64,000 bases of DNA from positions 29,220,668 to 29,284,667 of the forward strand of contig OZ020517.1 of assembly GCA_963971425.1 (NCBI GenBank), read 5' to 3'. Shown piece after piece: positions 1,191 to 25,106 of this stretch. Each line of letters begins with the position of its first letter. The stretch's first letter is position 1. A model generated the notes under the pieces. It was not told the DNA's origin and did not search any database. It saw only the letters and a list, made by a program, of their open reading frames with translations. The DNA is from Bryoerythrophyllum caledonicum (Eukaryota; Streptophyta; Bryopsida; Pottiales; Pottiaceae). Position numbers and translations under genes: made by a program.

Positions 1191-1199
1191 TGCTCCACC

Positions 1200-2737: not shown

Positions 2738-2762
2738 TATATATATATATATATATATAATA
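2738..2762. repeat. (TA)n microsatellite
   Basis: This is an alternating TA run in the AT-rich 3' region of copy 3. The related region at 23870-23890 has a shorter ATAT stretch. Confidence 0.8.
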
Positions 2763-3161: not shown

Positions 3162-4899
3162 AAGAGAGACATATTTCATGTAAAATTTCATGTTGAAATA
3201 ACAAATTAGCCAATGAATGTAAAACTTATTATGAAAAATCATAATAATTTTACTGATATGAATATGCTAGCATTATTATTTTTGGACTTACATCGGTAAA
3301 TTTGAAAGGACTCCAATAATTAGAATAATTTTAATTTTTTTTGAAGATTTCAAAAGACCCCATGGGATCAAAAACTAAGAGAAGTGAGAATTGTATTGTA
3401 AGAGCAAATAAATGTTAGGATTTGGATTGTATCAACGCTCCAATCTAAATGTTCCTTTGAATTGATCCATATTTATATCTCCAATACTTAATTTGACACA
3501 AGAGCCATGATGAATAAATAGTCACAATTCATCGTCTTAACAATACATTGCCTCAGAGACAATGCCCCTCTCAATAGGCTTTAAAGGAGACGATGTAACT
3601 ACCTTGTGTTTACAACCGTTTTCCCAACTTTCGGAAATATCATAAGTCCATGATTGATTCTCATGGGCTCCTCCTCCGAATATCCATCATTTGGTCTAGT
3701 TGTTACAACCTGGTCGTACGCAATTTAAATCATTATTTTGATATCTGATGCTCTTCCAGAAAGTGTTGAACTGTTTCTTCCGTTGTCGGAATGGTTTAAG
3801 CAATATGATTTATAAACGATATCAAAGGGTGATAGTCATAGGTAGCATAGGAAAGAGAACATCATATGGCCAAGTGGAGTGCATTATTGTAAGGAGATTC
3901 AACTAAGGTAAGCCTCCCCATAACCAACAAAAACCCATAGCCAACGCCTGTAAAATTGGGGTATATCCAACCCTCTTCCATCCCATTACCACCAACTCAC
4001 CTCCAAATGGAGTTTTGCTATTAGTCAAGACCCTTACTTTTGGTTGTGGGGGTACCTACTGCTCGCCACCCGCTAAACATGGCTGCACAGTTTGAAAATT
4101 TATAACTAATTCAGTTTTCATCGAACAAATATGAAATCACTTGGGTTGGAATTGTAATTCTATTGGCTATCACTGAAAAATAATAGTACAATTATCTCTT
4201 CTCTCCACATATGCACATTCCTTAACTTGTCGGTTTTAGGGGGGCTTACCTTATTCTCGTCCATTTAGTGATTCTAGGCAATGTTGAATGACAAAAGTGA
4301 ATCCTTAGAGTAGCTCAGACTACAAGGCTTGCCTTTGGTTGAGTTATTTTGTAGTTATAAATTATTTAGGGTTCTTGTTATTAAAATTTATTTTGACTTG
4401 GTGTGGGGATCATTTAAGGCAAAGATGCTAATCATGCTCTTCTCAACTTTCGGAAATACCATAGATCCATGAAGCAATCCTCATGGGCTTCTCTTCTAGA
4501 CATCCATCATTTGGTTCAGCTCTTACGAACTGGTTCTAACAATAAGAATAATTTTCATTTCCAAAGAAACTACCTAATATTACTAATACCAATATATCAA
4601 TATTATTTCAAAAGACAATAAAAATGTATTAGGAAGTAAATGTTAAATTCACTAGAAAATAGTTAATATGCTACTCTTTTGTTTTTTGAAATTTTCAAAA
4701 GACACTATTTTTTTAAATCTGTGTCATTTTTCCAATTTTTTTAAAAGAAACTGTAAACTGTTACAGCTAAGACATGTAAAATTGATATACATCATAGTAA
4801 TGAACTCATTTGTTGTATTCATAAAGCAACATCTATATCAACAAATCTTTATTCTATCAATAAACACTTTTCTTCCTCTACATAGTGATGGGTACATAG
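3162..4899. repeat. AT-rich spacer with two dispersed repeats
   Basis: I see no gene here. About 115 bp at 3600-3715 recur in direct orientation at 4437-4537; both contain CCAACTTTCGGAAATA-like text, a CTCATGGGCT block and CATCCATCATTTGGT. The segment 4048-4258 matches 27298-27505 (GGCTAAACATG, ATGAAATCACTT, ATTCTATTGGCTAT and GCACATT(C/G)CTTAACT in order). The last 200 bp before the transposon resemble 25000-25209, the empty target-site paralogue. Confidence 0.6.
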
Positions 4900-4930
4900 A
4901 ACACGTAATTAAGCAATTATGCACTTGGCC
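4900..4930 (+). repeat. Left terminal inverted repeat, outer (31 bp)
   Basis: It begins AACACGTAATTAAGCAATTA and differs from the other three ends by one base (CGC to CGT). It is preceded directly by ATAG. The internal neighbour is an AAAAGTGCACTTGGG repeat. Confidence 0.9.
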
Positions 4931-5472
4931 ATATAAAAGTGCACTTGGGTACAACGGCGGCCGTTGCGAACAAAAGTGGAAAAATGGAAAAAAAAATAAA
5001 ATATCAAAGGAAAAAAATGTTTTCCAAAGGAAAAAAATTTGAGCTTCTGCAACAATATTACGTACAATAATGGTTGTTCATATTGGAAGCGATTTTTTGG
5101 CATTTTCAACTAATTTGTGGTGGCCCCTCGTTAATACTAGATAAATATATATTTAATATAGTTTCACAATATTTCAAAGATAGATTTGAAGGATTGTAGT
5201 ATGTAAACAGGCGTAATTACAAAAAAACATACTTTATGCAAGGGTTGGCAGTTGATTAAAAAGATATTCTACGTAGTACATAATGCGTACAATGGTGGAA
5301 ACTAAATATATGTGCTTCAACAATTGGACTTAGCTCCAATAGTAAACACAGCTTCACTCTAAAGGATTAATGACATAACGTCTTACATCACCCTTAGAAT
5401 ATACTACTCTTACACATACACTATATATCAATTACCATACACAACTAGTATACTCTAAAAAATGCACACTAT

Positions 5473-8400
5473 CTACTCCATAGAATTTAGGGCTGCTTGC
5501 AAACGGTCGTCATCAATAGCTTCGGTTTGCATTGCAATATATTGTAGGATGTGAGCCTTTGCCGATTGAAGAATGCCAATCCTGCTTTCTACCTGCATTC
5601 CAAATACATTGCGCTTTCTGCACCCGCTGGCCCCGGACATGGTTCTTTCCGGTGAGTCTACCCATGAAAAAATGCATGCATCTTTCTCTACCCAACTATG
5701 GCTCTCCCCAGATGGCTCCCAGATTGAGTCCATGCAATTTGCATACCGTTGTGCAGAAGACCCATGTCCATCAGCAACCCCCCTTTGGATGATGGGCCAA
5801 TACCAACAAACCTTTATCTTAAGTCTCCATCGGTTTTTTCCTTCCTCAATCACTTTCCCCACATAGAATGGTACACCGCCTTCTATCTCTGCTCGATCAA
5901 CACTCAAGGCTACAAATTGTCCACAACGGATATCAGATTGTGGATTAAATGGTGGAAATGGGTCGTGATTACCTTCATACATTGTTCCTTCTTCGGCACG
6001 TTCCTCAACACCGTTGGTCTCTGTTTGTTGTGCCCTACGCACTGCTTGATTAGAGGGTCTTCCTCTACGAGGACCAAAGTATCCTCGAACCTCGGCATTT
6101 GGAAGCATGGCCACTACCTGCTCTACGACATTTATCTCGCGATTTTCTTCACTTGCACCATCCATTACATCCAAAGATGCGCTCCCTGTAGGTCCGGTGT
6201 TGGAGAACTCTGAAGGCCAAAACGGTGTGGTACGATGCTCATTGCTACGGTCTTTGTGTGGAAATTGAGCTAAATAGAGTTTCAATCTTTCAGCCTCTAC
6301 TTTTGCCTCACGATTCTTGTCCTCATGCTGCAACCTTTGAATGCACCTTTGTTTATATGCAATGAAGTCATCCAACGCCTTCAACTCCCGTTCGTCCGCT
6401 GCAAATACTTCTGCAAATGATGGTCGTTCATCCCTATTTGGCAACGACCTCAAAGTTTTCGTCCCTGCCTCTGGTCCCCATGGATCCTTGCAATAATGTT
6501 TGTGTTGTACTCGAACCTCACGAGTCCCTTCTCGATTGTCCATATAGAATCGCATGTGGTGCGAAAATGTTATGCCCACCAATGAATCCTGACCTGTCAG
6601 TAAGTGAGGAGTTATGAACAATTTCCAATTCCATACATTCTCTAGCAGCCGGGCGCTAACAAATGCCTCCGTAGGAGATGTTCCTCGTTCTATAAGACTC
6701 ATCATTTCCTTCAACGAGTCGACGTCCGACCTCTTCAACGTATTTGATATACAACTGAAACGTTGATCAATATCTTCGTGGGTATGGCCCACTATAAGAA
6801 AAGATAGTTCCACCTCCTGAAAAAACCCCAATCCCACCAATGTAGCACGTAGAGCAAACATATAAATGTTTTTGTTCTCACACGTGCAGTTGTTGGCTTG
6901 AATCCGCAATGTTGGTGGCAAAAAGCCCCTCCTCCGCAGCACATCTCCAATCACGTACAACAATGTACTCACGACTTGATTGCTATCGTGTTTGTGGTGA
7001 GCCCCAAACCACACGTCACAATATAAACCAATGCCATGTACAAGAGCACCACACAAATGGGTCTTCACAAACCGGTGCTCAATGTTCTTCACAGTCTGAC
7101 GCATCCTCGGTACCATGGTCGTGTTTTGGTCCATGCCATCCACTATGATGCACATGTACATCTCAGGGCTAATATAACACGACCTCTTGAATATCCAATA
7201 ATGCCTACGTTCTTCCATCTGGTTGCGTAGATGCAACATAAACAACTCCTTTATCTTTATCCTTGCATCCGCATTGGTGGTTCCTTCCATGGCACATTTA
7301 TACTTCCAACAATGATAACACTTTGAGAATCTCGAGAATGGAGGTACCTGAACGTGGGGATACTTGATGCGCCACATCCTCCGGAACGAACTCATAGAAA
7401 TGTTTTTCCCATTACAAATTCTCTTGACCTACTCGTTCACGTAATTGAATACATCAAATTTGGCTGTATTCATAGGAAGGAGAATGAGAGGCACCACTTC
7501 GTTGTCACTCTTACGGCGAATACAGCGATGAGGTTGAGGACAACCAGCTTCATCGACAAACGATTTAAAGCAAGCCTCTGCTGCAGACATTCTAGTACTC
7601 TCTCTTATCGGATCTGAAAGGGTATTGCCGTGAATCGATGTTACTCTTCCATATATTAGACAGTCCTTCTTCAATTGCTTAAAGCGCCTCTGTGAATATC
7701 CAACCCCAAGAGCGTAGCAAGCATTGCAAACTTCTTTCCCATCTAACTTTGTTACAAACTTGTCTCGACGAGTTCCTTCCGTCCTTGTGTAAAAAGAAAC
7801 TAGCATCTGTTTCATCCACGTACTTCGAACTGAAAACTCATTACCCCATGCATTATATCGCATGTCCAATAGATACCTTGCTGGAACGTCCCTCAAACAA
7901 TTGCGTTTGCATCCTCCTTGTGCCATTGCAATTTGCACGCTTCTAAGCGATACCTTAGATGGTGCAGCTTCTATGAATGATGGCTCCTAGAATCTCTCCT
8001 TCTCCTATTTTGCATAGAATATGGACGACGTGCTGGTCTAACATAAGCAAATCCATCTACATGGGGCAAATCTTGGATGTTTGAGGGAGTAGGCTGGGAA
8101 AACGGCGAATTTTCATCTTCGGCATTTGAAGCATGACTACTGCGTCGAGACCTCTGGGTGGATACTGGTGTGTTGATGAACTCAGGAAAATCAAATTCTG
8201 GGGCCATCACTTCTGTAGGCGCTATCTGTGATCCAATGTCACCATGGACACCTGTGATATCAGGTTCTACAGCCACTACACGTAGCAAAGATCGATGCCA
8301 ACGAATGATCAAGCCCACACACATGCCAAGTCGTTCTCCTACAATCTCTCCAGTCCAATGCAATGCATCATCTACCCTAATGATACGCACTGCCACCTCA

Positions 8401-8702
8401 AATGGGAACAACTTCGACCCATTCAATTCCATGCCACTTTTGAATGCATGCTCCCTGGTTGCTAAGCCCACCACATCTCCTTTCTCAGAAAGCAATTCAA
8501 CTGTCCTCTCCAATTCAGATGTTCTGATCCCAACAGATCTCTGTTGAATTTGCCTTGCACGTGCTGCTCGTACTAATCGAGCCCCCATAGAGCTATTGGA
8601 GTGCATATTATCCCTTTGGATGTGTGGCCGTATCGAAGGAGTCTGAATCGTGCGGTTGTCCATTATCACTATTGAAAAAATAGGAACATTATGGCTGCAC
8701 AT
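5473..8702 (-). pseudogene. Gene A, copy 1: putative DDE transposase (DUF7869-like), disabled
   Basis: The ancestral frame is about 1,076 codons. Its N-terminal third (8702 down to about 7990) has a domain with LATREHAF and FEVAVRII, resembling domains found in plant transposase-like proteins. A 1-nt deletion near 7985 relative to copy 2 breaks the frame, and a GAG-to-TAG change at 7429-7431 stops it; the longest intact piece is 640 codons (7395-5473). In that piece, CYHCWKYKC is a likely zinc site, DGMDQ (residues 86-89) and HTHEDIDQ (204-211) are candidate catalytic motifs, and the middle Asp of the DNC motif is replaced (QANNC against QVDNC in copy 2). The C-terminal part (GQFVALSVD...YVGKV...VCWYWP) looks like a BAH or SH3-type barrel. 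Function is inferred from motif order, not shown. Confidence 0.7.
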
Positions 8703-10960
8703 TAGTCAAAATACATGTACTAATTGTTAACCTTCAAAGCACCATTCATTTGATAAAAGATATATTTCTAAATACATATTTACTATTCAAAATATGATGA
8801 TGATATTAGACCTTTTGATAAAACAACTTTGAAATGAAAAAATTAAGAATTTGTAGAGCATGAACTCCTTGCACAGAGTCATTAACCTTGAAGGTACAAT
8901 GACAGTCTTACACCAAAAACACTTCAAAATTCTTGGATTCTAGTGCAATGAACAAAAAAGGAAACAAAAACTTTTATTTCTAATTTTGACCGTAGAATCT
9001 CAATTACGGCTTATTAAGTATTATAAAACAAAATTTCATAAACTTTGACCGCATGGATTGAAAGATTATAGTGTTTGAAGTCAAGCATATGGTTCATTTT
9101 CTTCCCTGAGTGCAGTGGATCAGCAGACTTTGACTTCACTTGCTATCAAATTTTTGCACTACACAAGGTCTATATCCATAACCATCTTGTTAAGCTTGAT
9201 GTTAGTTCTTTGTACACCAATTTTTAGAGGTAGGGAACGGGTGTAGCATATTCAAAACAATTGTGCAAGGAGTGGAAGTTTGGAATTTCTTAAATCACAC
9301 TATAATTTTTTGTGAACTTAATATGCTTTAGATTGGTAATCCAAATGGTCATAAGAAGGTTTAGACCACATATTGTTGTGGAAAAAATAAAAAGTGAAAA
9401 ATAAAAAAATATCTAGGTTTTATTTGGAAAACAAAAAGATTTTTTGGTACCTTGCCCAACACTAACTGACAATGTGTGAAAATGTTTGACTTGGGTTGAT
9501 ATGCTATTTTTCACTAATGACAAGAACTTATTTTGACAACATCAAGGAAAATAGTATTAGTTGTAAGTACCGAAAATCTCACATTCAACATAGTGCCATA
9601 GCAAAAGTTTTTGAACGTGCCCGACTTGTCCGACTTGCCCGCTCTCCCCATTTGAAATTCAAAACCCTTCAACTTTTTGATCAAATGTCTAATTTAGGTA
9701 AAAACTATTTTCCCACTAAAGTCTTGATAATGCCTTTCTATGATAAAATTTCCAAAGAGAAATGTTGGAAATTGACACCATAGGAACATGACCAAACTTT
9801 CAAAAAGCCCATTTTTGACAATTGATCCTTTAGGGGTTAAATATGTTACACTTCTTCTGCATCCCTAAACATTGGTGTAAAATGGAACTTATATCATTTC
9901 TAACATGATGATAATGAATCTAGATCATGTGTGATGTAATCTTTTGAATCCAAGTGAACTGAAATGAAGGGATTCCATTGAATCTAGGGAAGAAAATGAA
10001 CCATGTTGTCTACTTGCTATTACTGACACTATTGGAATTTGTTACAATCGCTAATAAATGAAAGGGTTTATACATCCACATAAAGGTTATTCTATAAATT
10101 ACATAGTATAGAAGATCAATCAACAATCAATCTTAAACTTGTATAAAAATAAATGTTTACCTGAAGATGCGTTGCAGGTGTTAGCGGTACACGCACTAAT
10201 GCTTGATGGCGTTCAACATTCATTCAACATTATGTCGTTGTTGTTGAACATGTTTTCCAACCCTTCCCATTGTACCTGCAACATATGCATAAAATTTATA
10301 TGGTAGACTATGTGATAAAAAGTCCCAAGTATCTTTGTATTACATGTAGGCTATAGCCAATTTTTTTAATATAATATGTAAAAAGCTTAAACAAAAGGAG
10401 AAACAAAGCAAAAGGTCCAAAGTTCTAAAGTCAAACTTTGACTAGTAAACTTGGAGCACAAGGTTCCAACAAGGATATAAGGTTTCTATGCAAATCTAGA
10501 GGTCTCTTCCCATCTCAGTTTCTAAGGTTAGCTCTCTTGCAATCGAGACCTCAAGGCCATGTGTATTTTGACTTCATTCACTAATTTCTGTCAACTTGTG
10601 TGTAGTGTGTAGATTGAAGGAAATTTGAACATCGAGAAGTTTCTTGCAAATTTGGTAAGTTTCTGACCTTGTTTCAATTCTGAATATGAGGGAACTCCAG
10701 TATTAGATTCATGATGATTAAAGATTAGTCAGAGATACAATAGTGTAAGGTGAGCAGAACTAAGAGTTGAGCACCCAAATGAAAACATCCACTTCAGTAT
10801 GTTCAAAGATTACAAATTCAATAGAAGTAAGATGTTTACAACTAGTGAGTCAACTAGTGACATCAAAGACTGACACCAAAACCCACTGAGAACTTCAATA
10901 ATGGGAGTAGCCCGTAGTATTGTACTAAAACCATGGTATGGCACATCAGCCCACTACCTG
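8703..10960. repeat. Central region, copy 1 (upstream of gene A)
   Basis: This is non-coding and AT-rich, and is nearly identical to 15316-17573. It contains the TTTGACCGCATGGATTGAAAGAT motif at 9044-9067 and one copy of the module that starts CAATTTTTAGAGGTAG (about 9220-9530). It probably holds the gene A promoter and leader, because gene A reads leftward from 8702. I see no intact gene; a 95-codon frame near 9500-9783 is not conserved as coding in the other copies. Confidence 0.55.
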
Positions 10961-11020
10961 AAACCCTAGCCACCGCGACCAAACCCTAGCCGCCACAACC
11001 AAACCCTAGCCGCCGCAACC
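10961..11020 (+). repeat. 20-bp telobox array, 3 units (copy 1)
   Basis: Three head-to-tail 20-bp units each begin AAACCCTAGCC and end with a CCRCRACC-like tail. They are followed by GGAAACCCAAACCCTAAAAA. The second copy has six units at 17574-17693, explaining the 60-bp shift between copies. Confidence 0.85.
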
Positions 11021-11071
11021 GGAAACCCAAACCCTAAAAATCAAACCCATGGAGTTCGCGTGACGCCTCAT

Positions 11072-11093
11072 GGGGTGTGCGCGCGCACACCCC
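11072..11093. promoter_or_regulatory. Perfect 22-bp GC palindrome
   Basis: GGGG TGTGCGCGCGCACA CCCC reads the same on both strands. The matching site in the second copy (17745-17766) has a few changes, and a near-palindrome of the same type (GGGTGTGCAC/GCGCACACCC) lies on the gene B side at 18301-18320. It could be a binding site or hairpin at the divergent promoter; that role is inference. Confidence 0.5.
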
Positions 11094-11267
11094 CACAAGT
11101 TGGTGCTCCTCCTTCCATCCGATAACTTCCTGTCGTGTGCAACCTCTTGACGACGGTGAGGGAGAGCTTCGTAAGTGGCCATTAAAATCTGCACATCAAG
11201 TTTGAATTAGAGGCATAAAAATTAGGTTTTGTGAGGCAAGCCAGCTCTCGTGTTTGCGCTGCGGCCC

Positions 11268-11467
11268 NNNNNNNNNNNNNNNNNNNNNNNNNNNNNNNNN
11301 NNNNNNNNNNNNNNNNNNNNNNNNNNNNNNNNNNNNNNNNNNNNNNNNNNNNNNNNNNNNNNNNNNNNNNNNNNNNNNNNNNNNNNNNNNNNNNNNNNNN
11401 NNNNNNNNNNNNNNNNNNNNNNNNNNNNNNNNNNNNNNNNNNNNNNNNNNNNNNNNNNNNNNNNNNN
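11268..11467. other. Assembly gap (200 N)
   Basis: Exactly 200 N bases suggest a placeholder of unknown true size. The left edge (GCTGCGGCCC) is the start of the GC-rich block that in copy 2 reads on into CTGGCGCAG repeats and CT-rich tandem repeats (17930-18215). The right edge (11468-11512) is a short sequence I cannot place. Any gene B and right TIR belonging to copy 1 could be hidden here. Confidence 0.95.
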
Positions 11468-11512
11468 CTCTTCCCACTAAACATACCAATAACTATACAA
11501 CACAACACCTCC

Positions 11513-11543
11513 AACACGCAATTAAGCAATTATGCACTTGGCC
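11513..11543 (+). repeat. Left terminal inverted repeat, inner (31 bp)
   Basis: It is identical in type to the outer TIR, beginning AACACGCAATTAAGCAATTA. The preceding bases (ACACCTCC) do not match ATAG or the right flank, so this end does not share the target duplication. That argues for duplication, recombination or an assembly join. Confidence 0.9.
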
Positions 11544-12084
11544 ATTTAAAAGTGCACTTGGGTACAACGGCGGCCATTGCGAACAAAAGTGGCAAAATTG
11601 AAAAAAAAAAAAAAAATCAAAGAAAAAAAATGTTTTCCTAAGGAAAAAAAATTGAGCTTCTACAACAACATTATGTACAATCATGGTTGTTCATATTGGA
11701 AGCGATTTTTTGGCATTTTCAACTAATTTGTGGTGGCCCCTCGTTAATACTAGATAAATGTGTATTTAATATAGTTTCACAATATTCCAAAGATAGATTT
11801 GAAGAATTGTAGTATATAAACAGACGTAATTACAAAAAAACATACTTTTTGCAAGGGTTGGCAGTTGATTAAAAGATATTCTACATAGTACATAATGCAT
11901 ACAATGGTGAAAACTAAATATAGATGCTTCAACAATTGGACTTAGCACCAATAGTAAACATAGCTTTACTCTAAAGGATTAATGACATAACGTCTTACAT
12001 CACCCTTAGAATATACTACTCTTACACATACACTATATATCAATTACCATACACAACTAGTATACTCTAAAAAAGGCACATTAT

Positions 12085-15000
12085 CTACTCCATAGAATTT
12101 AGGGCTGCTTGCAAACGGTCATCATCGATAGCTTCGGTTTGCATTGCAATATATTGTAGGATGTGAGCCTTTGCCGATTGAAGAATGCGAATCCTGCTTT
12201 CAACCTGCACTCCAAATACATTGCGCTTTCTGCACCCGCTGGCCCCGGACATGGTTCATTCCGGTGTGTCTACCCATGAAAAAATGCATGCATCTTTCTC
12301 TACCCAACTATACCTCTTCCCAGATGGCTCCCAGATTGAGTCCATGCAATTTGCATACCGTTGTGCAGAAGACCCATGTCCATCAGCAACCCCCCTTTGG
12401 ATGATGGGCCAATATCAACAAACCTTTATCTTAAGTCTCCATCGGTTTTTTCCTTCCTCAATCACTTTCCCCACATAGAATGGTACACCGCCTTCTATCT
12501 CTGCTCGATCAACACACAAGGCTACAAATTGTCCACAACGGATATCAGATTGTGGATTAAATGGTGGAAATGGGTCGTGATTACCTTCATACATTGTTCC
12601 TTCTTCGGCACGTTCCTCAACACAGTTGCGCTCTGTTTGTTGTGCCCTACGCACTGCTTGATTAGAGGGTCTTCCTCTACGAGGACCAAAGTATCCTCGA
12701 GCCTCGGCATCTGGAAGCAGGGCCACTACTTGCTCTACGACATTTATCTCGCGATTTTCTTCACTTGCACCATCCATTACATCCAAAGATGCGCTCCCTG
12801 TAGGTCCGGTGTTGGAGAACTCTGAAGGCCAAAACGGTGTGGTACGATGCTCATTGCTACGGTCTTTGTGTGGAAATTCAGCTAAATAGAGTTTCAATCT
12901 TTCAGCCTCTACTTTTGCCTCACGATTCTTGTCCTCATGCTGCAACCTTTGAATGCACCTTTGTTTATATGCAATGAAGTCATCCAACGCCTTCAACTCC
13001 CGTTCGTCCGCTGCAAATACTTCTGCAAACGATGGTCGTTCATCCCTATTTGGCAACGACCTCAAAGTTTTCGTCCCTGCCTCCGGCCCCCATGGATCCT
13101 TGCAATAATGCTTGTGTTGTACTCAAACCTCACGAGCCCCTTCTCGATTGTCTATATAGAATCACATGTGGTGCGGAAATGTTATGCCCACCAATGAATC
13201 CTGACCTGTCAGTAAGTGAGGAGTTATGAACAATTTCCAATTCCATACATTCTCTAGCAGCCGGGCGCTAACAAATGACTCCGTAGGAGATGTTCCTCGT
13301 TCTATAAGACTCATCATTTCCTTCAACAAGTCGACGTCCGACCTCTTCAACGTATTTGATATACAACTGAAACGTTGATCAATATCTTCGTGGGTATGGC
13401 CCACTATAAGAAAAGATAGTTCCACCTCCTGAAAGAACCCCAATCCCACCAATGTAGCACATAGAGCAAACATATAAATATTTTTGTTCTCACGCGTGCA
13501 GTTGTCGACCTGAATCCGCAATGTTGGTGGCAAAAAGCCCCTCCTCCGCAGCACATCTCCAATCACGTACAACAATGTACTCACGACTTGATTGCTATCG
13601 TGTTTGTGGTGAGCCCCAAACCACACGTCGCAATATAAACCAATGCCATGTACAAGAGCACCACACAGATGGGTCTTCACAAACCGGTGCTCAATGTTCT
13701 TCACAGTCTGACGCATCCTCGGTACCATGGTCGTGTTTTGGTCCATGCCATCCACTATGATGCACATGTACAACTCAGGGCTAATATAACACGACCTCTT
13801 GAATATCCAATAATGCCTACGTTCTTCCATCTGATTGCGTAGATGGAACATAAACAACTCCTTTATCTTTATCCTTGCATCCGCATTGGTGGTTCCTTCC
13901 ATGGCACATTTATACTCCCAAAAATGATAACACTTTGAGAATCTTGAGAATGGAGGTACCTGAACGTGGGGATACTTGATGCGCCACATCCTCCGGAACG
14001 AACTCATAGAAATGGTTTCCCCATTACAAATACTCTTGACCTCCTCGTTCACGTAATTGAATACATCAAATTTGGCTGTATTCATAGGAAGGAGAATGAG
14101 AGGCACCACTTCGTTGTCACTCTTACGGCGAATACAGCGATGAGGTTGAGGACAACCAACTTCATCGACAAACGATTCAAAGCAAGCCTCTGCTGTAGAC
14201 ATTCTAGTACTCTCTCTTATCGGATCTGAAAGGGTATTGCCGTGAATCGATGTTACTCTTCCATATATTAGACAATCCTTCTTCAATTGTTTAAAGCGCC
14301 TCTGTGAATATTCAACCCCAAGTGCGTAGCAAGCATTGCAAACTTCTTTCCCATCTAACTTTGTTATAAACTTGTCTCGATGAGTTCCTTCCGTCCTTGT
14401 GTAAAAAGAAACTAGCATCTGTCTCATCCACGTACTTCGAACTGAAAACTCATTATCCCATGCATTATATCGCATGTCCAATAGATACCTTGCTGGAACG
14501 TCCCTCAAACAATTGCGTTTGCATCCTCCTTGTGTCATTGCAATTTGCACGCTTCTAAGCGATACCTTAGATGGTGCAGCTTCTGTCAATGATGGCTCTC
14601 TAGAATCTCTCCTTCTCCTATTTTGCATAGAATATGGACGACGTGCTGGTCTAACATAAGCAAATCCATCTACATGGGGCAAATCTTGGATGTTTGAGGG
14701 AGTAGGCTGGGAAAACGGCGAATTTTCATCTTCCGCATTTGAAGCATGACTACTGCGTCGAGACCTCTAGGTGGATCCTGGTGTGTTGATGAACTCAGGA
14801 AAATCAAATTCTGGGGCCATCACTTCTGTAGGCGCTATCTGTGATCCAATGTCACCATGGACACCTGTGATATCAGGTTCTACAGTCACTACACGTAGCA
14901 AAGATCAATGCCAACGAATGATCAAGCCCACACACATGCCAAGGCGTTCTCCTACAATCTCTCGAGTCCAATGCAATGCATCATCTACTCTAATGATACG

Positions 15001-15315
15001 CACTGCCACCTCAAATGGGAACAACTTTGACCCATTCAATTCCATGCCACTTTTGAATGCATGCTCCCGGGTTGCTAAGCCCACCACATCTCCTTTCTCA
15101 GAAAGCAATTCAACTGTCCTCTCCAATTCAGATGTTCTGATCCCAACAGATCTCTGTTGAATTTGCCTTGCACGTGCTGCTCGTACTAATCGAGCCTTCA
15201 TAGAGCTATTGGAGTGCATATTATCCCTTTGGATGTGTGGCCGTATCGAAGGAGTCTGAATCGTGCGGCTGTCCATTATCACTATTGAAAAAATAAGAAC
15301 ATTATGGCTGCACAT
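12085..15315 (-). pseudogene. Gene A, copy 2: putative DDE transposase, multiple stop codons
   Basis: It is collinear with copy 1 at offset 6612-6613, in one continuous frame from 15315 to 12085 but with in-frame stops at 14905-14907, 14767-14769, 13162-13164, 13123-13125, 12415-12417 and 12256-12258. Against copy 1, three are CGA-to-TGA, one CAG-to-TAG, one TGG-to-TGA and one AGA-to-TGA. The longest open stretch (506 codons, 14682-13162) keeps the whole catalytic core: DGMDQ, QVDNCTRENKN with the middle Asp intact, and GHTHEDIDQ, with 39 residues between the middle Asp and the Glu. It also has VCNACYALG and CYHFWEYKC near the N-terminus of the core. The two copies therefore carry different defects. 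The target is presumably the 31-bp TIR. Confidence 0.75.
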
Positions 15316-17573
15316 TAGTCAAAATACATGTACTAATTGTTAACCTTCAAAGCACCATTCATTTGATAAAAGATATATTTCTAAATACATATTCACTGTT
15401 CAAAATATGATGATGATACTAGACCTTTTGATAAAACAACTTTGAAATGAAAAAATTAAGAATTTGTAGAGCATGAACTCCTTGCACAGAGTCATTAACC
15501 CTGAAGGTACAATGACAGTGTTACACCAAAAACACTTCAAAATTCTTGGATTCTAGTGCAATGAACAAAAAAGGAAACAAAAACTTTTATTTCTAATTTT
15601 GACCGTAGAATCTCAATTACGGCTTGTTAAGTAATATAAAACAAAATTTCATAAACTTTGACCGCATGGATTGAAAGATTATAGTGTTTGAAGTCAAGCA
15701 TATGGTTCATTTTCTTCCCTGAGTGCAGTGGATCAGCAGACTTTGACTTCACTTGCTATCAAATTTTTGCACTACACAAGGTCTAAATCCATAACCATCT
15801 TGTTAAGCTTGATGTTAGTTCTTTGTACACCAATTTTTAGAGGTAGAGAACGGGTGTAGCATATTCAAAACAATTGTGCAAGGAGTGGAAGTTTGGAATT
15901 TCTTAAATCACACTATAATTTTTTGTGAACTTAATATGTTTTAGATTGGTAATCCAAATGGTCATAAGAAGGTTTACACCACATATTGTTGTGGAAAAAA
16001 TAAAAAGTGAAAAATTAAAAAAATATCTAGGTTTTATTTGGAAAACAAAAAGTTTTTTTGGTACCTTGCCCAACACTGACTGACAATGTGTGAAATGTTT
16101 GACTTGGGTTGATATGCTATTTTTCACTAATGACAAGAACTTATTTTGACAACATCAAGGGAAATAGTATTAGTTGTAAGTACCGAAAATCTCACATTCA
16201 ACATAGTGTCATAGCAAAAGTTTTTGAACGTGCCTGACTTGCCCGACTTGCCCGCTCTCCCCATTTGAAATTCAAAACCCTTCAACTTTTTGATCAAATG
16301 TCCAATTTAGGTAAAAACTATTTTCCCACTAAAGTCTTGATAATGCCTTTCTATGATAAAATTTTCAAAGAGAAATTTTGGAAATTGACACCATAGGAAC
16401 ATGACCGAACTTTCAAAAAGCCCATTTTTGACAATTGATCCTTTAGGGGTTAAATATGTTACACCTCTTCTGCATCCCTAAACATTGGTGTAAAATGGAA
16501 CTTATATCATTTCTAACATGATGATAATGAATCTAGATCATGTGTGATGTAATCTTTTGAATCCAAGTGAACTGAAATGAAGGGATTCCACTGAATCTAG
16601 GGAAGAAAATGAACTATGTTGTCTACTTGCTATTACTGACACTATTGGAATTTGTTACAATCGCTAATAAATGAAAGGGTTTATACATCCACATAAAGGT
16701 TTTTCTATAAATTACATAGTATAGAAGATCAATCAACAATCAATCTTAAACTTGTATAAAAATAAATGTTTACCTGAAGATGCGTTGCAGGTGTTAGCGG
16801 TACACGCACTAATGCTTGATGGCGTTCAACATTAATTCAACATTATGTCGTTGTTGTTGAACATGTTTTCCAACCCTTCCCACTGTACCTGCAACATATG
16901 CATGAAATTTATATGGTAAACTATGTGATAAAAAATCCCAAGTATCTTTGTATTACATGTAGGCTATAGCCAATTTTTTTAATATAATATGTAAAAAGCT
17001 TAAACAAAAGGAGAAACAAAGCAAAAGGTCCAAAGTTCTAAAGTCAAACTTTGACTAGTAAACTTGGAGCACAAGGTTCCAACAAGGATATAAGGTTTCT
17101 ATGCAAATCTAGAGGTCTCTTCCCATCTCAGTTTCTAAGGTGAGCTCTCTTGCAATCGAAACCTCAAGGCCATGTGTATTTTTACTTCATTCACTAATTT
17201 CTGTCAACTTGTGTGTAGTGTGTAGATTGGAAGAAATTTGAACATCGAAAAGTTTCTTGAAAATTTGGTAAGTTTCTGACCTTGTTTCAATTCTGAATAT
17301 GAGGGAACTCCAGTATTAGATTCATGATGATTAAAGATTAGTCAGAGATACAATAGTGTAAGGTGAGCAGAACCAAGAGTTGAGCACCCAAATGAAAACA
17401 TCCACTTCAGTATGTTCAAAGATTACAAATTCAATAGAAGTAAGATGTTTACAACTAGTGAGTCAACTAGTGACATCAAAGAGTGACACCAAAATCCACT
17501 GAGAACTTCAATAATGAGAGTAGCCCGTAGTATTGTATTAAAACCATGGTATGGCACATCAGCCTACTACCCT
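15316..17573. repeat. Central region, copy 2
   Basis: It matches 8703-10960 with scattered substitutions. It contains the TTTGACCGCATGGATTGAAAGAT motif (15657-15680) and the module starting CAATTTTTAGAGGTAG at about 15830-16140. Non-coding. It lies between gene A and the telobox array, and probably includes the gene A 5' region. Confidence 0.55.
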
Positions 17574-17693
17574 AAACCCTAGCCACCACAACCAAACCCT
17601 AGCCACTGCGACCAAACCCTAGCCGCCACAACCAAACCCTAGCCGCCACTACCAAACCCTAGCCGCCGCAACCAAACCCTAGCCACCGCAACC
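17574..17693 (+). repeat. 20-bp telobox array, 6 units (copy 2)
   Basis: Six 20-bp units beginning AAACCCTAGCC run head to tail, then GGAAACCCAAACCCTAAAAATG. AAACCCTA teloboxes are known in 5' regions of many plant genes; here they sit between the two divergent genes. The unit number (6 against 3 in copy 1) shows replication slippage or unequal exchange. Confidence 0.85.
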
Positions 17694-17934
17694 GGAAACC
17701 CAAACCCTAAAAATGAAATCCATGGAGTTCGCGTGACGCCTCATGGGGTGTGCGCGCGTACACCCTCACAAGTTGGTGCTCCTCCTTCCATCCGATAACT
17801 TCCTGTCGCGTGCAACCTCTCGACGACGGTGAGGGAGAGCTTCGTAAGTGGCCATTAAAATCTGCACTTCAAGTTTGAATTAGAGGCATAAAATTAGGTT
17901 TTGTGAGGCAAGGCTGCCCTCGCGTTTTTGCTGC

Positions 17935-18300
17935 GGCCCTGGCGCAGGTGCAGCGGCCTTGCCCACGCGCGCCAGCCCTGGCGCAGGCGCTGCGGCCTGG
18001 CTGCCCTAAAAAAAAAAATTTCCTCTCTCCAAATTTCTCTCCCTCACCCCTCCCCTCCAAATTTCTCTCCCTCACACCTCCCCTCCATACCTCTCCCTCA
18101 CACCTCCCCTCCATTCCTCTCCCTCCCACCTCCCCTCCATTCCTCTCCCTCACAACTCTTCTCTCCACACACCTCCCCCTCATTCCTCTCCCTCACAACT
18201 CTTCTCTTCTCACAAGCCTTTCTCTCACAAACCCACAAGCCTCCAAACCCTTCTCCAAATCCTCTCTCTCACAGTGGCAGCCTCCTCACAACAATGGCAC
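17935..18300 (+). repeat. GC-rich CTGGCGCAG block and 26-28-bp CT-rich tandem repeat
   Basis: 17935-18005 is GC-rich with repeated CTGGCGCAGG words. From about 18022 to 18215 there are roughly six units of a 26-28-bp repeat of the form (AAATTTC or ATTCC)TCTCCCTCACACCTCCCCTCC. Pyrimidine-rich DNA followed by ACAACAATGG at about 18290 resembles a plant 5' leader for rightward transcription toward gene B. Open frames through it are low-complexity artefacts. Confidence 0.65.
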
Positions 18301-18490
18301 GGGTGTGCACGCGCACACCCCTCCTTGGACTACCCAAGGATTGATATCCGTAGTTGATACCCTCACAACGAAAACCCTAATTTTCAAACCCTAATTGATA
18401 CCCTGAACAAATACCTATGTTGATAACCGGATGTTGGTACCCATGAAATCATACCCTGGTTGTGATACCCTCGCTATTGATACCCAAAGT
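18301..18490 (+). promoter_or_regulatory. GC near-palindrome plus cluster of TTGATACCC words
   Basis: A 20-bp near-palindrome (18301-18320) is followed by about seven TTGATACCCT-like words between 18342 and 18482. The same arrangement survives in copy 3 at 1640-1735. A cluster of one short word between the two genes could be a binding platform for an element-encoded protein or part of the gene B leader. This is inference from repetition only. Confidence 0.4.
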
Positions 18491-18831
18491 ACCATAGTCC
18501 ATAAATGGTGTAAAGAATATCTCAACCAAAACTCGTAAAAAATGCTTGTTTTAGTGCAATTAGCTTGCATGAAAAATTGAGGTTTTTTTTGTAGTTTTAA
18601 CCGTAGGATCTCAATAAAGGCTTATAAAGTAATGTACTCACAAAATTTCATAAAGTTTGACCGCACGGATTGAAAGATTATAATGTTTGAAGTTGAGAAA
18701 AGGCTCATTTTCATCCCTGCGTTTTATGGATCAGCAGACTTTGACTTAAATTAGTGTCCAATTTTTGCATTTCAAAGGGTCTCAATTAATTACCATAATG
18801 TTTAGCATGATGTTAGTTTTCTATATACCAA

Positions 18832-19620
18832 TTTTTAGAGGTAGACAAGGAGCGTAGCATTTTCAAAAAAATTGTGCAATGAGTGGAGGTTCAAAAATTC
18901 TCAATTCACGTTACATTTTTTGGGGAACTCGATATTGTTTTAAATGAGAATCCAAATGGTCAATAAAAAGTTTTACATCACATAATGCTGTAGGAAAAAT
19001 AAAAAGTGAATCATACAAAGATCTCAAAGTTTTATGTGGGAAGGTAGTGGTTTCTTTGGTACGTTGGCCGAAAATGTGTGAGAATGTGTGAAAATAATTG
19101 ATTTGGATTGGCGTGCTATTTCACCAAAGAACTAACAACATGCTTCACACGATGCTATTGGATTTTGATCTTGTGTAGTGCAAAAGTTTTTAGAGGTAGA
19201 AAAGGAGTGTAGCATATTTAAAAAAATTGTGCAAGGAATGGAGGTTCAAAAATTCTCAATTCACGTTTTTTTCTTTTGGGGAACTTGATGTTGTTTGAAA
19301 TGAGAAACCAAATGGTCCATAAGAAGGTTTACATGATATAATGCCGTAGGAAAAATCAAAAGTGAATCATACGAAGATCTCAAAGTTTTATGTGGACATG
19401 TAGAAGATTTTCTGGTACCTTAGCAAAAAATTTGTGACAATGTGTGAAAATAATTGACTTGGATTAATATGCCTTTTCACCAAAGAACTAACAACATGCT
19501 TAACACGATGATATTGGATTTAGATCTTCTGAGGTGCAAAAGTTTTTAGAGGTAGACAAGGGGTGTAGCATGTTCAAAAATATTGTGCAATGAGTGGTGG
19601 TTCAAAAATTCTTATTCCAT
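18832..19620 (+). repeat. 355-bp tandem repeat upstream of gene B (about 2.2 copies)
   Basis: TTTTTAGAGGTAGA followed by GTAGCAT occurs at 18832, 19187 and 19543, a period of 355-356 bp, with collinear text between. The unit is also present once in each gene A-side central region (about 9220 and 15830), in copy 3 (about 800), and inverted at 37000-37310. The last partial unit ends just before gene B. Confidence 0.75.
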
Positions 19621-19674
19621 ACTAATAGTGACTATGGTTTTGTAATGATATACAGGTTTTTTGAGTGTTGCGTT

Positions 19675-22600
19675 ATGGCACCACCAAATATTGACAGAAT
19701 TTGGGAGAGCTACGGCTGGTGGATCGCGGAAGTGGATGAGTCGAACGCCTTCTTGTGGATGACGGATTATCCCTTTGAGTTGGGGAAGCGTACATCGGCA
19801 TTGGGGAAGAGTTTTGGCAAAATTCAGGCAATCACTCTTCGACCTGATGATATGGTATATGTAACTTGCGCAGTAGGTCCTGGTCAATCGGAGGTGAAGA
19901 CTTCTCTTTCGAAGAAGTTGCTTCTTGCACCTGTCCCTTTGAATCTTCTTCAAAATCCAGGTCAGGTGAAATTCCTCAAATCATTGCAGACGTTTTGGTT
20001 GAACATCTCTCTTGCGGTACGTACTGCTAGACACAACAACGTCTTAGCATGTTTAGCGTTATCACCGGAGATGGTGCTGAAGGCTAAGAGGATTATGGAG
20101 GAACATATTAGATATGAGGCATTTCGGGAGAGAGACCCATCACGTGCGACAACTCAAGCCCCACCAGCGGAACCAGAAGAAACAGAAGTTTATCGAATTC
20201 TTGCTGAGCCGTTGCAATTGGATTGGCGACCACTGGAGGGGGGAGGGGAAGTAGAGGCCAACATCCCACCACAACTTCTGAGGTACAGACAATACCGAAT
20301 CCTCCATTAACGAGTAGACGTCCTACGAAGAGGCCACGGCGTGTTGAGAGTGATGTAGCTTCTGGTTCAGGGAAGGCCCATCAAGTTTGGATCCAAGCGG
20401 GAGGAGGTTGAATGGGAGAAGTGTAAGGTCGGGTGGCAGGGTTCGTAGGTCGGGGCTCAGGACGTCTGATGGTCATCGTAGGGCCCCTACATCTACACCG
20501 GGAGATTTAGCTGATTTGTCAGCCATGGCGCAGGAGGAAGAAGATTTTCACAACCTTCCAGACAATATACCAGAGGATTTTGAAGATAATGCGGTGATAT
20601 CACAGGATGTTCCAACTTCAATGTATTTAAAAGCACCAGTGCCTACAACGGAGGAGATTGCAAAAGGATCAATGTGGGGGAATTTTGTGTTTAAGGCACA
20701 CATAGACCGCATTGTCTCTGTGGAGAATCCGGAAACGAATCACCGGGTTTTATCACAGAAGAAGGTCAAAGAAGTATTTAATCGCTTGAGAGACCCTGAA
20801 TCCGCGACTCGGGTGAGTAGATTGGTACTTCAACCGATCAGATACATCGTGCATACTACCACCGATGATGGTGTCGTTGAGAAAGAGGAGCTACCATTTC
20901 CGTTGGTAGGAACCGCATGAGAGTTTGAGCGCATGTTCATTGCACACGGGAGTGCTTCTGCACAGGGTGCTATGGGATCCCAGTATTCTTGGCTTCAAGA
21001 TCATATCATTTGGAAACCGGTGGATGGGCAACACATAGTAGCAGCTTGTAAGTTTGCACAGCAGCAGTGGAGAGATGGTACCATGCCTTCTAATGTGAGT
21101 ACCTGGACACGTTCGAGCGGCGGGAGGCGTCTTTTGTAGTGTATGATGATCGTCGTTTTTACATTGAGAAGTCTGCGCGGATCAATGTGGCGGAGTTCCA
21201 GAGACAGTCGTATTCTACTATGGAGGAGGATTTGAGGAAGCTCCGTCAGATTTGGGATCTATACGGGAGGCCTGACAGCACACTACGTGCGGACGATGCG
21301 CGCAGGGCTGTTGCTTTGGTGAGTGCGGCAAGTGCAGTGCATAAGTTGCCCAAGGGGGATGGAGTTGTCACGGTGAAGAGGTTGGCCAAAAACATGGAGG
21401 ATCTAACCAATCATGTATGGAATCCGAGCAATGACTGCTTCGAAGCTATCATTCAAGTATGCAAGGACTACGAAGACGGCATTCTCTTTTACAGCAAGGA
21501 GGAAGAGGACAAGTGGAGGGACATGGCGAGGAAGAAAGAACTGGATCCAAATGTGGACGTACGACCAACAAGAAAGGAGATGACCCAGAATTGGTTGAGG
21601 CCGTTGGGTAGGGTTCCGATTCCATATTATCTTCGGTTGGCAAAGTCTGCTGGAGCGAAGCCCGTGAGGGAGGATGGAGTAAGACCTCGTCAAGCATACT
21701 ACTTCGACGGTGTAAAAGACAAGAATCCACATCCTCGTACGATTGCCGGTGTTTGTGACCGATATCAGAGACGAGAAGCTGTGATCAATTCCATCCCTTG
21801 GTTGATGGTGGAGAACAAGGAAAGTACACCTGATTCCATGGAGGAGTTCTTCCGTATCCGTGTAGGGAAGTATTTTCCGAGGAGTAACGCACAACTTGAT
21901 ACCTTTGGGAAGCTTTTGAATGCTGCCACGAAAAAAGCTTGGACTGCTCCTGTGCGGGGGAAGGTGTCTAAACTGGAAAACATAGGCTACCTCATCCCTC
22001 CTTCCATCAGGTTTCATTATGGTGACATTGCAACAGGAGGGCGTGGATACATTGGACTGTCCGTGGATGTGGGAGGACAGGCTATTGCTAATTGGGAATG
22101 GCAGATGGAAGTCAAGAGGCCAGGCCAGAGCGACACAGAGAATCTTATTCCGATTCGCTGTAGAAGAGGGTTATTCCGTACCGACTACATAGAGTTGGGG
22201 AAACCATGTTTGTGGGTGATTGATTGTCGACGTGGCGGTGGGAGGCATGGAGATGGTCATTGGGGAGACGCCCAATTATCCGCAGCTTTTGCACAGCTGT
22301 CATTATGGATGGCAAATATTGAACGATGGAACGTCATCTTCTTGTTACCAGCGGCCGTGTATGCCAACAAAGACTTTTTCACGAAGGTGAAGCTTCCAGA
22401 GGGATGTACTATGCGACGTGGATGTTGGGCATTTGATCCGAACTCGGTTAATCCCTATGCTCTCGATTTTACAGAGAATGGGCGTTTGGAGCAAGTAGTA
22501 CAACCGATTGGCGATGTTGTGATTTGTATGCAGCACCCTGTGGATACATCTCCTGGCCCGAACTATGTTTCTGGAGACGTTCCACTTCCTCTTGTTTTCT

Positions 22601-23637
22601 TGGATCACTGGAGTGAAGCACGCCAACCTTCTGAAGTTGATTCACTTGAGAGATCTCCATCAGAGCTGGCAAGACTAGTGGGCTCATACTTGCCCCGTGG
22701 TTGGGGTTTACTGGCGTGTAACATATCTACGGCCATTCCCACGATCCTGGAAGGAGATTTCCAGGGATCTAAAGTTTTCATCATTGACGATTGTACAGAC
22801 AGAGTTCCATTCCTGTACAATGAGTTGTCCGACAATTTCCAAGGACAACTGTTGGTCAGGACTGGTGGAACAAGTACTGGTTGCAATATCGTACCTGAGA
22901 CCGAGGCGGTTGGTGGAGTGAGGAATGAAGATGACAATGAGGATGGAGATGGTTTACATGAGAGATTGCCACGTTCAGGTACCACTGAAGATTTCTCATC
23001 TCGCAGTGGTTTAGACGCCGATGAAGATGGAGTGAACCAGTCTCCTCCAAGAGAGACGATTCCATCAACGCAGCGGGCAGTGGGAGATACTTCACGGGAG
23101 ACGTCTACATCACCTACAGAGAGGATGCAAGATACCGGTGTAGTGGATGTTGGTTTGGCGGCAGGGGCAGGAGGGGGGCGTACATTTGATGGTCCTAGGC
23201 TGGAGATGGAGGAAGAAGAATTGGATTCATTAGAATTTTTTTCGGTGCAGAGGAGGATTCGACAGCCTTCGATGCCTTCTCAATCAGAGCCTATATCGGA
23301 GACACAAGAGACGTTCGGAGGTACTCAGAGTGATACTGGACTAGGTTTGCCTTCTGTTCCAAGATCTAGCATATCCGAGGACATCATTGCATTTCAGGGG
23401 GCCTTCTCGTCAGAGCGAGAGATGTCCTTCAATCCTGAAGATGGTTTTTTCTACAATGATGATCGCGTAAGGCATACGCGGGAGGGTGTACCTGGCAATT
23501 ACCGATTTATTGAGTGTGCGTCCATTGGCATCGAAGATGTGGGAGATCGTCCAGTGCAGGATCATGAACTGTCCGCTATGGTAGGTAGCGCCATTGGACA
23601 CGTGGAGGGAGTCATTCCGCCAGAAGATGAGCTATGA
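19675..23637 (+). pseudogene. Gene B: large unrecognised protein with possible degenerate permuted methyltransferase core, frameshifted
   Basis: The coding path starts at ATG 19675 (MAPPNIDRIWESYGWW), shifts frame near 20230 (a G-run), again near 20400, meets a TGA at 20918-20920 where CGA is likely ancestral, and shifts near 21100 before an 832-codon open stretch (21139-23637). The ancestor would be about 1,300 residues. The N-terminal block is unknown. A basic TKRPRR patch (about 20320) and an acidic stretch (QEEEDF, about 20530) follow. Within the 832-codon part, LWVIDCRRGGG (about 356-366), RWNVIFLLPA (about 395), SPSELARLV (about 505) then GLLACNISTAIP and KVFIIDDCTD (522-554) follow the motif IV-to-I order of permuted DNA methyltransferases without their catalytic residues. 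The last 240 residues are Ser/Asp/Glu-rich. The methyltransferase link is a weak inference; the family is otherwise unknown to me. Confidence 0.55.
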
Positions 23638-24204
23638 GCCCTGGAGCTATATACTATAGTAGAGCATGCACGCAGTTTAGGTGGCAAGTACGTTAGTATA
23701 ATGTAGTTTGAGATGTGTCTATCGTTCGGTGGGTGGTATATATTTATATATTAGATGGTCCATATGATATGTTTGGTTTTAGAATTCCTCAGTGATAGTG
23801 TGGAATTGTTTGATTATGTATGTTTTTGCATTATAAAATACAGTGAGGTACTTTACACTGTCTTAGGAAATTGCATATATATTTTTGTATCTCTTACACA
23901 TTGTATTTGTAGTGCAGTACTCTAAAATCCTATAATAACTCATAACACATTTATAATCTCTTTGGGCACATGATCATAATTTTGTAGCAAGATTTGGAAA
24001 CTAGATTAGAAATCATATATTTTCTTAAAAAAGGTAGAGAATGTAAAAAATATATTATTGATATGAACATGAAGATGCCAATGTATGACACGACAAACAC
24101 CCAAAAAAATTGACAAAAAACATACTAAACTTTTGCCAAATTTTGATTTTTTAAAAAGTTATGAGCAAATAACTTGCGGCTTTCTACCAACAACCAGTGC
24201 ACTT
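23638..24204. other. Gene B 3' flank inside the transposon
   Basis: This is AT-rich non-coding DNA between the gene B stop and the right TIR. It shares ATTGTATTTGTAG and nearby text with 2826-2880 in copy 3, so it belongs to the element. It probably holds the gene B polyadenylation region; no signal is obvious enough to call. Confidence 0.5.
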
Positions 24205-24235
24205 GGCTAAGTGCATAATTGCTTAATTGCGTGTT
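24205..24235 (-). repeat. Right terminal inverted repeat (31 bp)
   Basis: Read on the minus strand it begins AACACGCAATTAAGCAATTA, with one difference from the left TIRs (TTAGCC for TTGGCC). ATAG follows at 24236-24239, matching the word before 4900. A GTGCACTTGG word lies just inside. Confidence 0.9.
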
Positions 24236-24239
24236 ATAG

Positions 24240-25106
24240 ATGTATTCCGTTATTATGTTCACATACATAGTTTGAATTGTCCTTGTCATATGGTCACGGA
24301 ATTTCCTCCTCTTAATCAACCAGAATCATTTATTTATATGGTAGATCATTTGGTATCATCTACATACAAGTTGCAAGGTAACAAAACGAACTTAGTGGAA
24401 TTGTGTCCAAGAGTAGATTAGAAATATTTTCATTCCTAAAGAAATTGCATTAACAGTACCTATACCACTTTAACACAAGGCCTCATTGTATGGGGACCCA
24501 CAAAGCCCTTGGGGGAGATGAATGTTGGTTGTCTCTAAGGCAATTAGTGTAGCGAAGCACTTAGTGTAGAAGAGTGTTACCCTTGAGAGGGGGGAGTAGT
24601 TCTATTACACTAGCCTATGTCCCGTGGCCATATGCTTAGTGAAGAGAATGAACAAACACTATATTCACGCCATTCTCCTTCGGAGACCGGAGTTCTTCTT
24701 CTACCACTACAACAATTTTATTTTTTTAGGAGTTTTCAAAAGACACCATAAATTTTTGAAGTACATGTTTATTTTATTTCATTATAATTCTTCTAAAAGA
24801 TTCTACAAAATGTATTACCAAACAAATGACATTTTAAAATGAAAAATCACTATAACCTTAATAATTCTTGGACTACAATATTATTATTTTTGAATATCTC
24901 AAAAAACACTAAGAATTTTTTGGTCAATAATTGTACAATTTATTATGGAACATCATGATTACCTTACCAATTCAAGATGCTCATATACATTTATTTATTT
25001 TTCAAAAGACACTGTTATTTTAAATCATTATAAAATTTTCACACAATTTAAAGGACACTATTAAAACTGTATTGGCTAATAAATGTAGATGTCATACAAT
25101 TTATAA
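24240..25106. other. AT-rich intergenic DNA
   Basis: No gene recognised. The region contains TTTTCAAAAGACACT words (24735, 25001) that also occur at 3350 and 4693, marking it as part of the same old repeat landscape as the transposon's left flank. Confidence 0.4.

Follow-up and report, generated by a model that had tools for sequence, protein, structure and literature searches.

What kind of mobile element occupies positions 4900-24235 of a 64,000-nucleotide stretch of the moss Bryoerythrophyllum caledonicum genome (assembly GCA_963971425.1, contig OZ020517.1, positions 29,220,668 to 29,284,667; hereafter the window)? A first-pass annotation, made from the letters alone, proposed a two-gene DNA transposon, with divergent genes termed gene A and gene B, that may define an undescribed group. 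The locus very probably belongs to a multi-copy family of two-gene DNA transposons of about 11-15 kb that generate 4-bp target duplications, encode a DUF7869 protein as putative transposase, and represent a Sola-like lineage with an additional conserved gene. The family itself is real and is defined by its ends, its target duplications, an empty target site, and two genes that are paired, co-inherited and under purifying selection. Its movement is probably of the cut-and-paste type, its affinities are probably Sola-like, and gene B would encode a new accessory protein.

Ends and target site of the window element

The outer insertion is bounded by a left terminal inverted repeat (TIR) at 4900-4930 (plus strand) and a right TIR at 24205-24235 (minus strand). 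These are the matching 31-bp inverted ends noticed at first pass, and each differs by one mismatch from the common 31-mer. A second left TIR at 11513-11543 (plus strand) has no mismatches to this 31-mer, and the right TIR of a neighboring derivative at 3131-3161 (minus strand) is also an exact copy. No TIR match beyond these four was found in the whole 64-kb window with up to 9 of 31 mismatches allowed. The motif GTGCACTTGG lies directly inside both ends (at 4939, 11552, and 24197).

The tetranucleotide ATAG abuts both outer ends (4896-4899 on the left and 24236-24239 on the right, located by the terminal-repeat scan and the empty-site alignment). Its proposed origin as a target site duplication is borne out by a paralogous empty target site at 24999-25231, a host repeat with a single ATAG. 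The host DNA to the left of 4900 is a repeat, and the copy at 24999-25231 runs from left flank through ATAG to right flank without the element. When the two flanks are joined with ATAG counted once and compared with this repeat, the alignment crosses the junction with a score of 148. The right side of the alignment is short, extending 22 bases past ATAG; ungapped and in register, 18 of 25 right-flank bases match the empty site, and one other window position (at 2974) outscores it over 25 bases, with 20 of 25. Taken together, the empty-site alignment and the ATAG pair support the reading that a single insertion, with a 4-bp duplication, has its two ends at 4900 and 24235.

The view of 4900-24235 as a single element had to be abandoned, as a gap of 200 N and a second left half (11513-17939) lie inside it. 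The span of about 19 kb consists of one element of about 12.7 kb (11513-24235) and an additional left half, whose possible origins are considered below.

Distribution and target duplications of the family

The genome searched comprises 437,360,962 bases in 894 contigs. A DUF7869 profile search gave 3613 first-look candidates, of which 150 were scored. All 150 lay above the cut-off, and many of them fall in open frames longer than 1,040 codons; none of 14 control genomes had a DUF7869 match. Ten gene A loci (e1-e10), picked for long frames and variety, were read at length. Both genes are present at seven of them (e3-e9), and the distant e10, which has both genes with its own ends, is the eighth. 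The expectation that full copies carry both genes is thus satisfied at eight of the ten loci, the other two showing no gene B. In e10, gene A is 39% identical to the relative P0003 and gene B is 30-34% identical over the best stretch; its ends are AACACCGGTTCCGTTAAAA and its duplication is TATT.

Exact 4-bp duplications flank e5 (ATAT), e6 (AAAA), e7 (ATTT), and e8 (ACAA). Damage affects the right tips of e4 and e9; the sequence read at e3 stops short of the outer right end, and an inner element at this locus has GACA. Complete lengths range from 11.0 kb (e10) through 12.3 kb (e5), 12.7 kb (e8), and 12.8 kb (e6) to 15.4 kb (e7); e8 and e6 include a 200-N gap, and e5, e7, and e10 are gap-free copies with matched duplications. 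Ten further loci with frames of 1,066-1,077 codons were read at their ends only, and right ends were found at nine, L060/L061 being without one. These nine loci and e5-e8 make up 13 scored end pairs; of the 20 loci, e1, e2, e3 (outer), e4, e9, e10, and L060 were left out.

An exact 4-bp duplication occurs in 11 of the 13 pairs, compared with 2 of 156 mismatched pairs, and the other two match at a one-base offset (TCTG/ATCT and AAAT/AATA). The 4-bp length anticipated from the window alone therefore holds across the family. In seven pairs with longer flanks the match stops at 4 bp, so the duplications are not 8 bp or 7-12 bp long. They are mostly AT-rich, varied 4-mers (e.g., ATAG, GTAA, CCTA, ACAA), and none is TTAA. 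The tips of the main family read AACACG...CGTGTT.

Gene A encodes a DUF7869 protein

Gene A is transcribed leftward and gene B rightward, and the divergent pair described at first pass is indeed present. The window holds two copies of gene A on the minus strand. Copy 1 (5473-8663) is broken by one internal stop and one frameshift, and copy 2 (12085-15276) encodes a DUF7869 protein of about 1,063 residues with six in-frame stops. The DUF7869 (PF25273) match lies at 13210-13686 on the minus strand (residues 361-519 of the frame 13162-14766; E = 4.4e-47), and it is the sole match in a Pfam scan of the gene A pieces at E up to 1. Of 3291 candidates from a protein database search with gene A, 95 were relatives at E up to 0.001. 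Named relatives come from Saccostrea, Branchiostoma, Lytechinus, Mytilus, and Ephydatia; DUF7869 relatives are accordingly found in molluscs, a sea urchin, a lancelet, and a sponge. Searches of viral contigs by gene A, gene B, or the exact TIR, limited by their search patterns, revealed no relatives.

The gene A alignment comprises the window piece and 62 of the 95 relatives, 63 rows in all. With numbering after P0003, and among rows with a letter at the position, aspartate D291 is kept in 58 of 58, D373 in 52 of 56, and D413 in 52 of 53. Their contexts are VDGMDQ, DNCxRENKN, and GHTHEDID, with 81 and 39 residues between the aspartates; in window copy 1 the second aspartate reads N. This pattern matches the expectation for a D-D-D transposase, and catalysis by these residues is predicted. 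The first-pass assignment of gene A to a DDE-type transposase of a DUF7869-like family is thereby upheld as to the family and the conserved acidic residues, and the transposase role stays putative.

Two further features of DUF7869 proteins were observed. The C-terminal part of gene A (about 5500-6000 and 12110-12610, minus strand) contains a conserved stretch outside DUF7869, GQFVALxV...VPFYVGKV...WYWP, which is also present in P0003 and by eye resembles a small barrel-type domain; the scanned piece 12415-13122 had no Pfam match. The Saccostrea protein P0064 combines DUF7869 with an OTU-type protease domain, found in 2 of the 63 rows, which hints at composite animal versions.

Gene B is a conserved second gene

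Gene B (19675-23637, plus strand) spans about 1,300 codons and in the window is broken by frame changes and a stop into the pieces 19594-20310, 20354-20920, and 21094-23637. Full-length open versions are present in two of seven loci, with 1,359 codons in e5 and 1,324 codons in e8. Twelve relatives were found when the best 8000 candidates by shared words were scored, and none has a precomputed Pfam domain. Comparison of gene B and its relatives with Pfam, PHROGs, NCBIfam, and PDB yielded scattered weak matches in one or two members (best E 0.0008), and searches of phages gave five records, a chance level. By such comparisons gene B has no convincing match to a known family. That it encodes an accessory or regulatory protein, as suggested at first pass, is consistent with its retention as the second gene of the element; the role itself is still presumptive.

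Selection and co-inheritance

The codon comparison covered e3-e9 and the window copy over about 835 residues of gene A and 937-1,309 residues of gene B. Loci e3-e9 form 21 pairs, which are not independent of one another; their dN/dS values span 0.13-0.35 (gene A) and 0.23-0.41 (gene B). Values rise as far as 0.64 (gene A) and 0.49 (gene B) when the broken window copy is one of the pair. Within the region compared, gene A is free of stops in e3-e9. The protein distances of the two genes among eight elements are strongly correlated (r = 0.967), and 6 of 5000 permutations gave a value as high. Both genes are under purifying selection and are co-inherited, and many copies have decayed. The two window copies of gene A alone differ by 23 silent and 54 replacement changes over 1,061 codons, a comparison too weak to tell selection. 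As the history of both proteins shows constraint, both therefore serve some need of the element.

The two genes differ in pace. In the more distant pairs, namely those with e4, e5, or e7, the difference in gene B is 2.2-2.7 times that in gene A (e.g., e5 and e8 share 81.7% of gene A and 56.0% of gene B), and the closest pairs show no excess of gene B difference over gene A. Faster change of gene B in distant pairs would suit a factor tied to ends that change or to silencing by the host.

In the proposed mechanism, the gene A protein would be the transposase. It would bind the ends, through AACACG... and the nearby GTGCACTTGG as a candidate second binding site, cut by means of its conserved aspartate triad, and join the element to the target with a 4-base stagger, in a cut-and-paste manner. 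The gene B protein would be an accessory factor needed for efficient mobility. Its most likely role, with about an even chance, is that of an assembly or DNA-binding partner of the transposase; a role as an anti-silencing factor is the next likeliest, and on the unlikely side.

Comparison with known superfamilies

Several features are shared with elements of other kinds. En/Spm is also a two-protein system. VANDAL/Mutator elements with a second, anti-silencing gene also have a transposase gene accompanied by an unrelated conserved second gene. The duplications of hAT are 8 bp and those of PIF/Harbinger 3 bp; those of the present element are 4 bp. Tc1/mariner duplicates TA, and piggyBac and Kolobok duplicate TTAA, whereas the element has varied 4-mers, none of them TTAA.

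CACTA (En-Spm) elements are likewise large (more than 10 kb) with short TIRs. They are described with CACTA/CACTG tips and 3-bp duplications (PMC10741241), in contrast to the AACACG tips and 4-bp duplications of the moss element. The CACTA transposase domain (Transposase_21 and relatives) was not found in the gene A pieces (Pfam, E up to 1), and it is absent from the 25 families, of 44, listed among the 62 gene A relatives and the window piece. The earlier judgment that ends and proteins are unlike those of En/Spm is thus sustained. Mutator duplications measure 7-12 bp (PMC10741241), unlike the 4 bp seen here, and gene A has no Mutator match in Pfam. Ginger1 and Ginger2 share 4-bp duplications and TIRs with the element. 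Ginger elements are reported to have TG tips, a Gypsy-like integrase, and CCGG/CCGT (Ginger1) or RTATAY (Ginger2) targets (PMC2836005), the tips being given elsewhere as TG...CA (PMC10741241); the element differs in its AACACG tips and in having no integrase-core match in gene A (Pfam). Duplication length and tips therefore argue against CACTA, Mutator, Tc1/mariner, and Ginger and also against hAT and PIF/Harbinger.

The superfamily overlooked at first pass is Sola, whose general traits fit, and the proposal of an undescribed group does not stand as worded. Sola elements are described with a D-D-D transposase, 4-bp duplications, and variable ends, and occur in the moss Physcomitrella (PMC10741241); Sola2 of slime moulds has AT-rich 4-bp duplications (PMC3627910). 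The likeness extends to TIRs of variable length and sequence and to sizes that can exceed 15 kb (PMC10741241, PMC3627910). A 4-bp duplication was found in the window (ATAG, with an empty site) as well as in the scored end pairs. Judged by traits (the duplication length, the D-D-D pattern, and the published moss occurrence), Sola is probably the nearest known kind. Set against the published descriptions of Sola, the element differs in its conserved second gene of about 1,300 codons.

A number of observations weigh against the reading of a Sola-like two-gene transposon with gene A as its transposase. The aspartate triad is not unique, since D294, E378, E412, and D415 of the same motifs are likewise conserved acidic residues. 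PDB sequence searches revealed no gene A relative (one search returned none, another three unrelated names, best E 0.007). In hhalign comparisons of gene A with the IS3, IS30, YagA, IS5, and IS1 proteins of E. coli, none scored above the best of ten unrelated controls, and bacterial integrase-type kinship of gene A was rejected on these scores. Loci e1 and e2 carry gene A, and neither gene B nor a TIR pair was detected there by the scan. Gene B is interrupted or incomplete in five of seven loci, with stops in e3, e4, e6, e7, and e9. Finally, the duplications are not of the AWWT form given for Sola2.

Alternative explanations

The element may be an already catalogued Sola member (e.g., in Repbase, from mosses), with gene B the known second open reading frame of that entry. 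This is a serious possibility, if somewhat below an even chance. It gains from the Sola traits listed above, from the presence of Sola in Physcomitrella (PMC10741241), and from Sola2, which pairs AT-rich 4-bp duplications with an 888-residue transposase (PMC3627910). Against it, DUF7869 is not named in the open literature searched, and the accessible portions of the Sola descriptions mention no second protein of 1,300 residues (PMC10741241, PMC3627910). No paper on such a two-gene element surfaced among those listed by the literature searches, Repbase and subscription journals being outside their scope.

A tentative alternative is that of a separate superfamily, a DUF7869 clade with AACAC tips, 4-bp duplications, and an obligatory pairing of gene A and gene B. 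Duplications of 4 bp occur in the distant e10 as well as in the main family, and the tips of both start with AACA (AACACG and AACATG; AACACCGG in e10). Gene B is conserved along with gene A, and the animal distribution of DUF7869 relatives also favors such a clade. Its traits overlap with those of Sola, however, and the lack of a detected gene B or TIR pair at e1 and e2 counts against an obligatory pair. In its broadest form, this proposal holds that DUF7869 elements form their own superfamily, present in plants and animals alike, and that the lineage studied here depends for its transposition on both a D-D-D transposase and a large gene B protein with a fold not so far described in a transposon; it is possible and is put forward with reserve.

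A further alternative derives gene B from a phage-type fusion of ParB and a DNA methyltransferase that lost catalysis and now serves as a DNA-binding or anti-methylation factor. This origin is improbable. By eye, the series TNxRxL ... LRPxxY ... EPVDGQHxVxAC recalls the ParB fold, and the order LWxxDCR ... LERSPxEL is reminiscent of permuted N6/N4 methyltransferases. Of these, the distant e10 copy retains the ParB-like stretch and the DCR motif but hardly LERSPxEL. Fusions of ParB with N6_N4 methyltransferases are reported to be more frequent in phages (PMC12704722). Yet no match to these families was found in Pfam, PHROGs, NCBIfam, or PDB, and ParB_N and N6_N4_Mtase are not listed at E up to 10, the HMMER filters dropping most matches above 0.1. 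The gene B sub-alignments for the ParB and methyltransferase scans took in 8 of the 10 and 8 of the 12 rows available. With hhalign, nine phage fusions (eight for the ParB part) and a methyltransferase set reached probabilities of at most 2.5%, and ten controls at most 1.5%; once e10 was added, no target exceeded 0.4% and a control scored best (4%), the gene B profile being narrow and its power low. For one phage fusion protein, the relatives (best 120 of 7994 matches) were too alike to use. A ParB-methyltransferase origin was thus tried and found no support in the database scans or in hhalign with controls, and is kept as a weak rival.

A last alternative treats the ends, the gap, and the duplicated halves as scaffold artefacts and denies that the element exists, as the 200-N gap and the duplicated left half within the span might suggest. 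It is extremely improbable. For the family it is refuted by copies at other places in the assembly that have no gap and carry matched duplications (e5, e7, and e10), by the empty site, and by homologues of gene A and of gene B from other sources; uncertainty is confined to the internal structure of 4900-24235.

Internal structure and neighboring sequences

Copy 1 of the left half (4900-11267) stops at the 200-N assembly gap in the element center (11268-11467). It is 96.4% identical to 11513-17939 in the self-comparison, and the identity starts precisely at both left ends, the homology of the second copy beginning exactly at its TIR. Between the gap and the second left end lie 45 bp (11468-11512) without a G. 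Its closest match has 18 mismatches in the rest of the window and 19 in the ten related loci, so neither holds a counterpart of this flank. It is G-free like the central tract of the element; 16 G-free runs of such length, the flank included, occur in the window, so such runs are not rare enough for the flank to be placed by its lack of G. The second left end at 11513 is flanked by CTCC and would then have come by an event separate from the outer insertion. The extra left half may derive from a nested insertion followed by loss of its right half or from a scaffold error, both of which fit.

A 200-N gap occurs at about the same central place in four of the ten other loci (e3, e6, e8, and e9); locus e1 also has one, elsewhere in the locus. 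The recurrence of central gaps indicates that the gap probably reflects a hard-to-sequence stretch. Such gaps near the element center (loci L040-L041, L046-L047, and L050-L053, and window positions 11268-11467) matter for annotators. The center between gene A and gene B is repeat-rich and TC-rich, with a central G-free, TC-rich tract at 18004-18215 and, immediately upstream of gene B, two tandem repeats of about 355 bp (18832-19612; 86.6% identical).

The neighbor at 1-3161, whose left end lies beyond the window, is an internally deleted derivative, as the first-pass annotation had recognized. It keeps a piece of gene A (1-81) and two parts of gene B, with a jump of nearly 4 kb between the two. 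The first is the beginning of gene B (2416-2542); the second is its final part together with the right terminus (2557-3161). By eye, its right flank (3162-3185, AGACATATTTCAT) resembles the host repeat at 25205-25220 (AGACATATTCCAT). This is the host repeat hit by the main element, a few bases from the target, and there may be a preference for one host repeat.

Other repeats occur in the window. A fragment of the intergenic non-coding region of the element lies at 36681-38004 (minus strand; 85-86% identical to 15496-16448) and is split by an insert at about 37350-37722. The insert has inverted ends by eye (AAGGGCACCTTCGGC and GCCGAAGGTGCCCTT) and looks like a small non-autonomous element within the older fragment. 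A decayed LINE at 44452-48268 (plus strand) shows, in different frames, weak matches of DUF4283-like, endonuclease, and reverse transcriptase type, the DUF4283 match falling below the cut-off (E = 0.0007) and a GIY-YIG domain match above it. These DUF4283 and GIY-YIG matches point to a plant host. Another inverted repeat pair (42090-42765 and 61709-62369) is 82% identical over about 680 bp and has no match to the element in the window self-comparison.

Implications

The moss family suggests a function for DUF7869, a domain annotated only as unknown. It adds a two-gene transposon with apparently intact copies, as open frames of both genes are present in e5 and e8. The second gene, maintained beside the putative transposase, has a role that may lie in assembly, targeting, or escape from silencing. 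With at least 150 DUF7869 matches above the cut-off in a 437-Mb genome, annotation that lacks this family may mistake its genes for those of the host.

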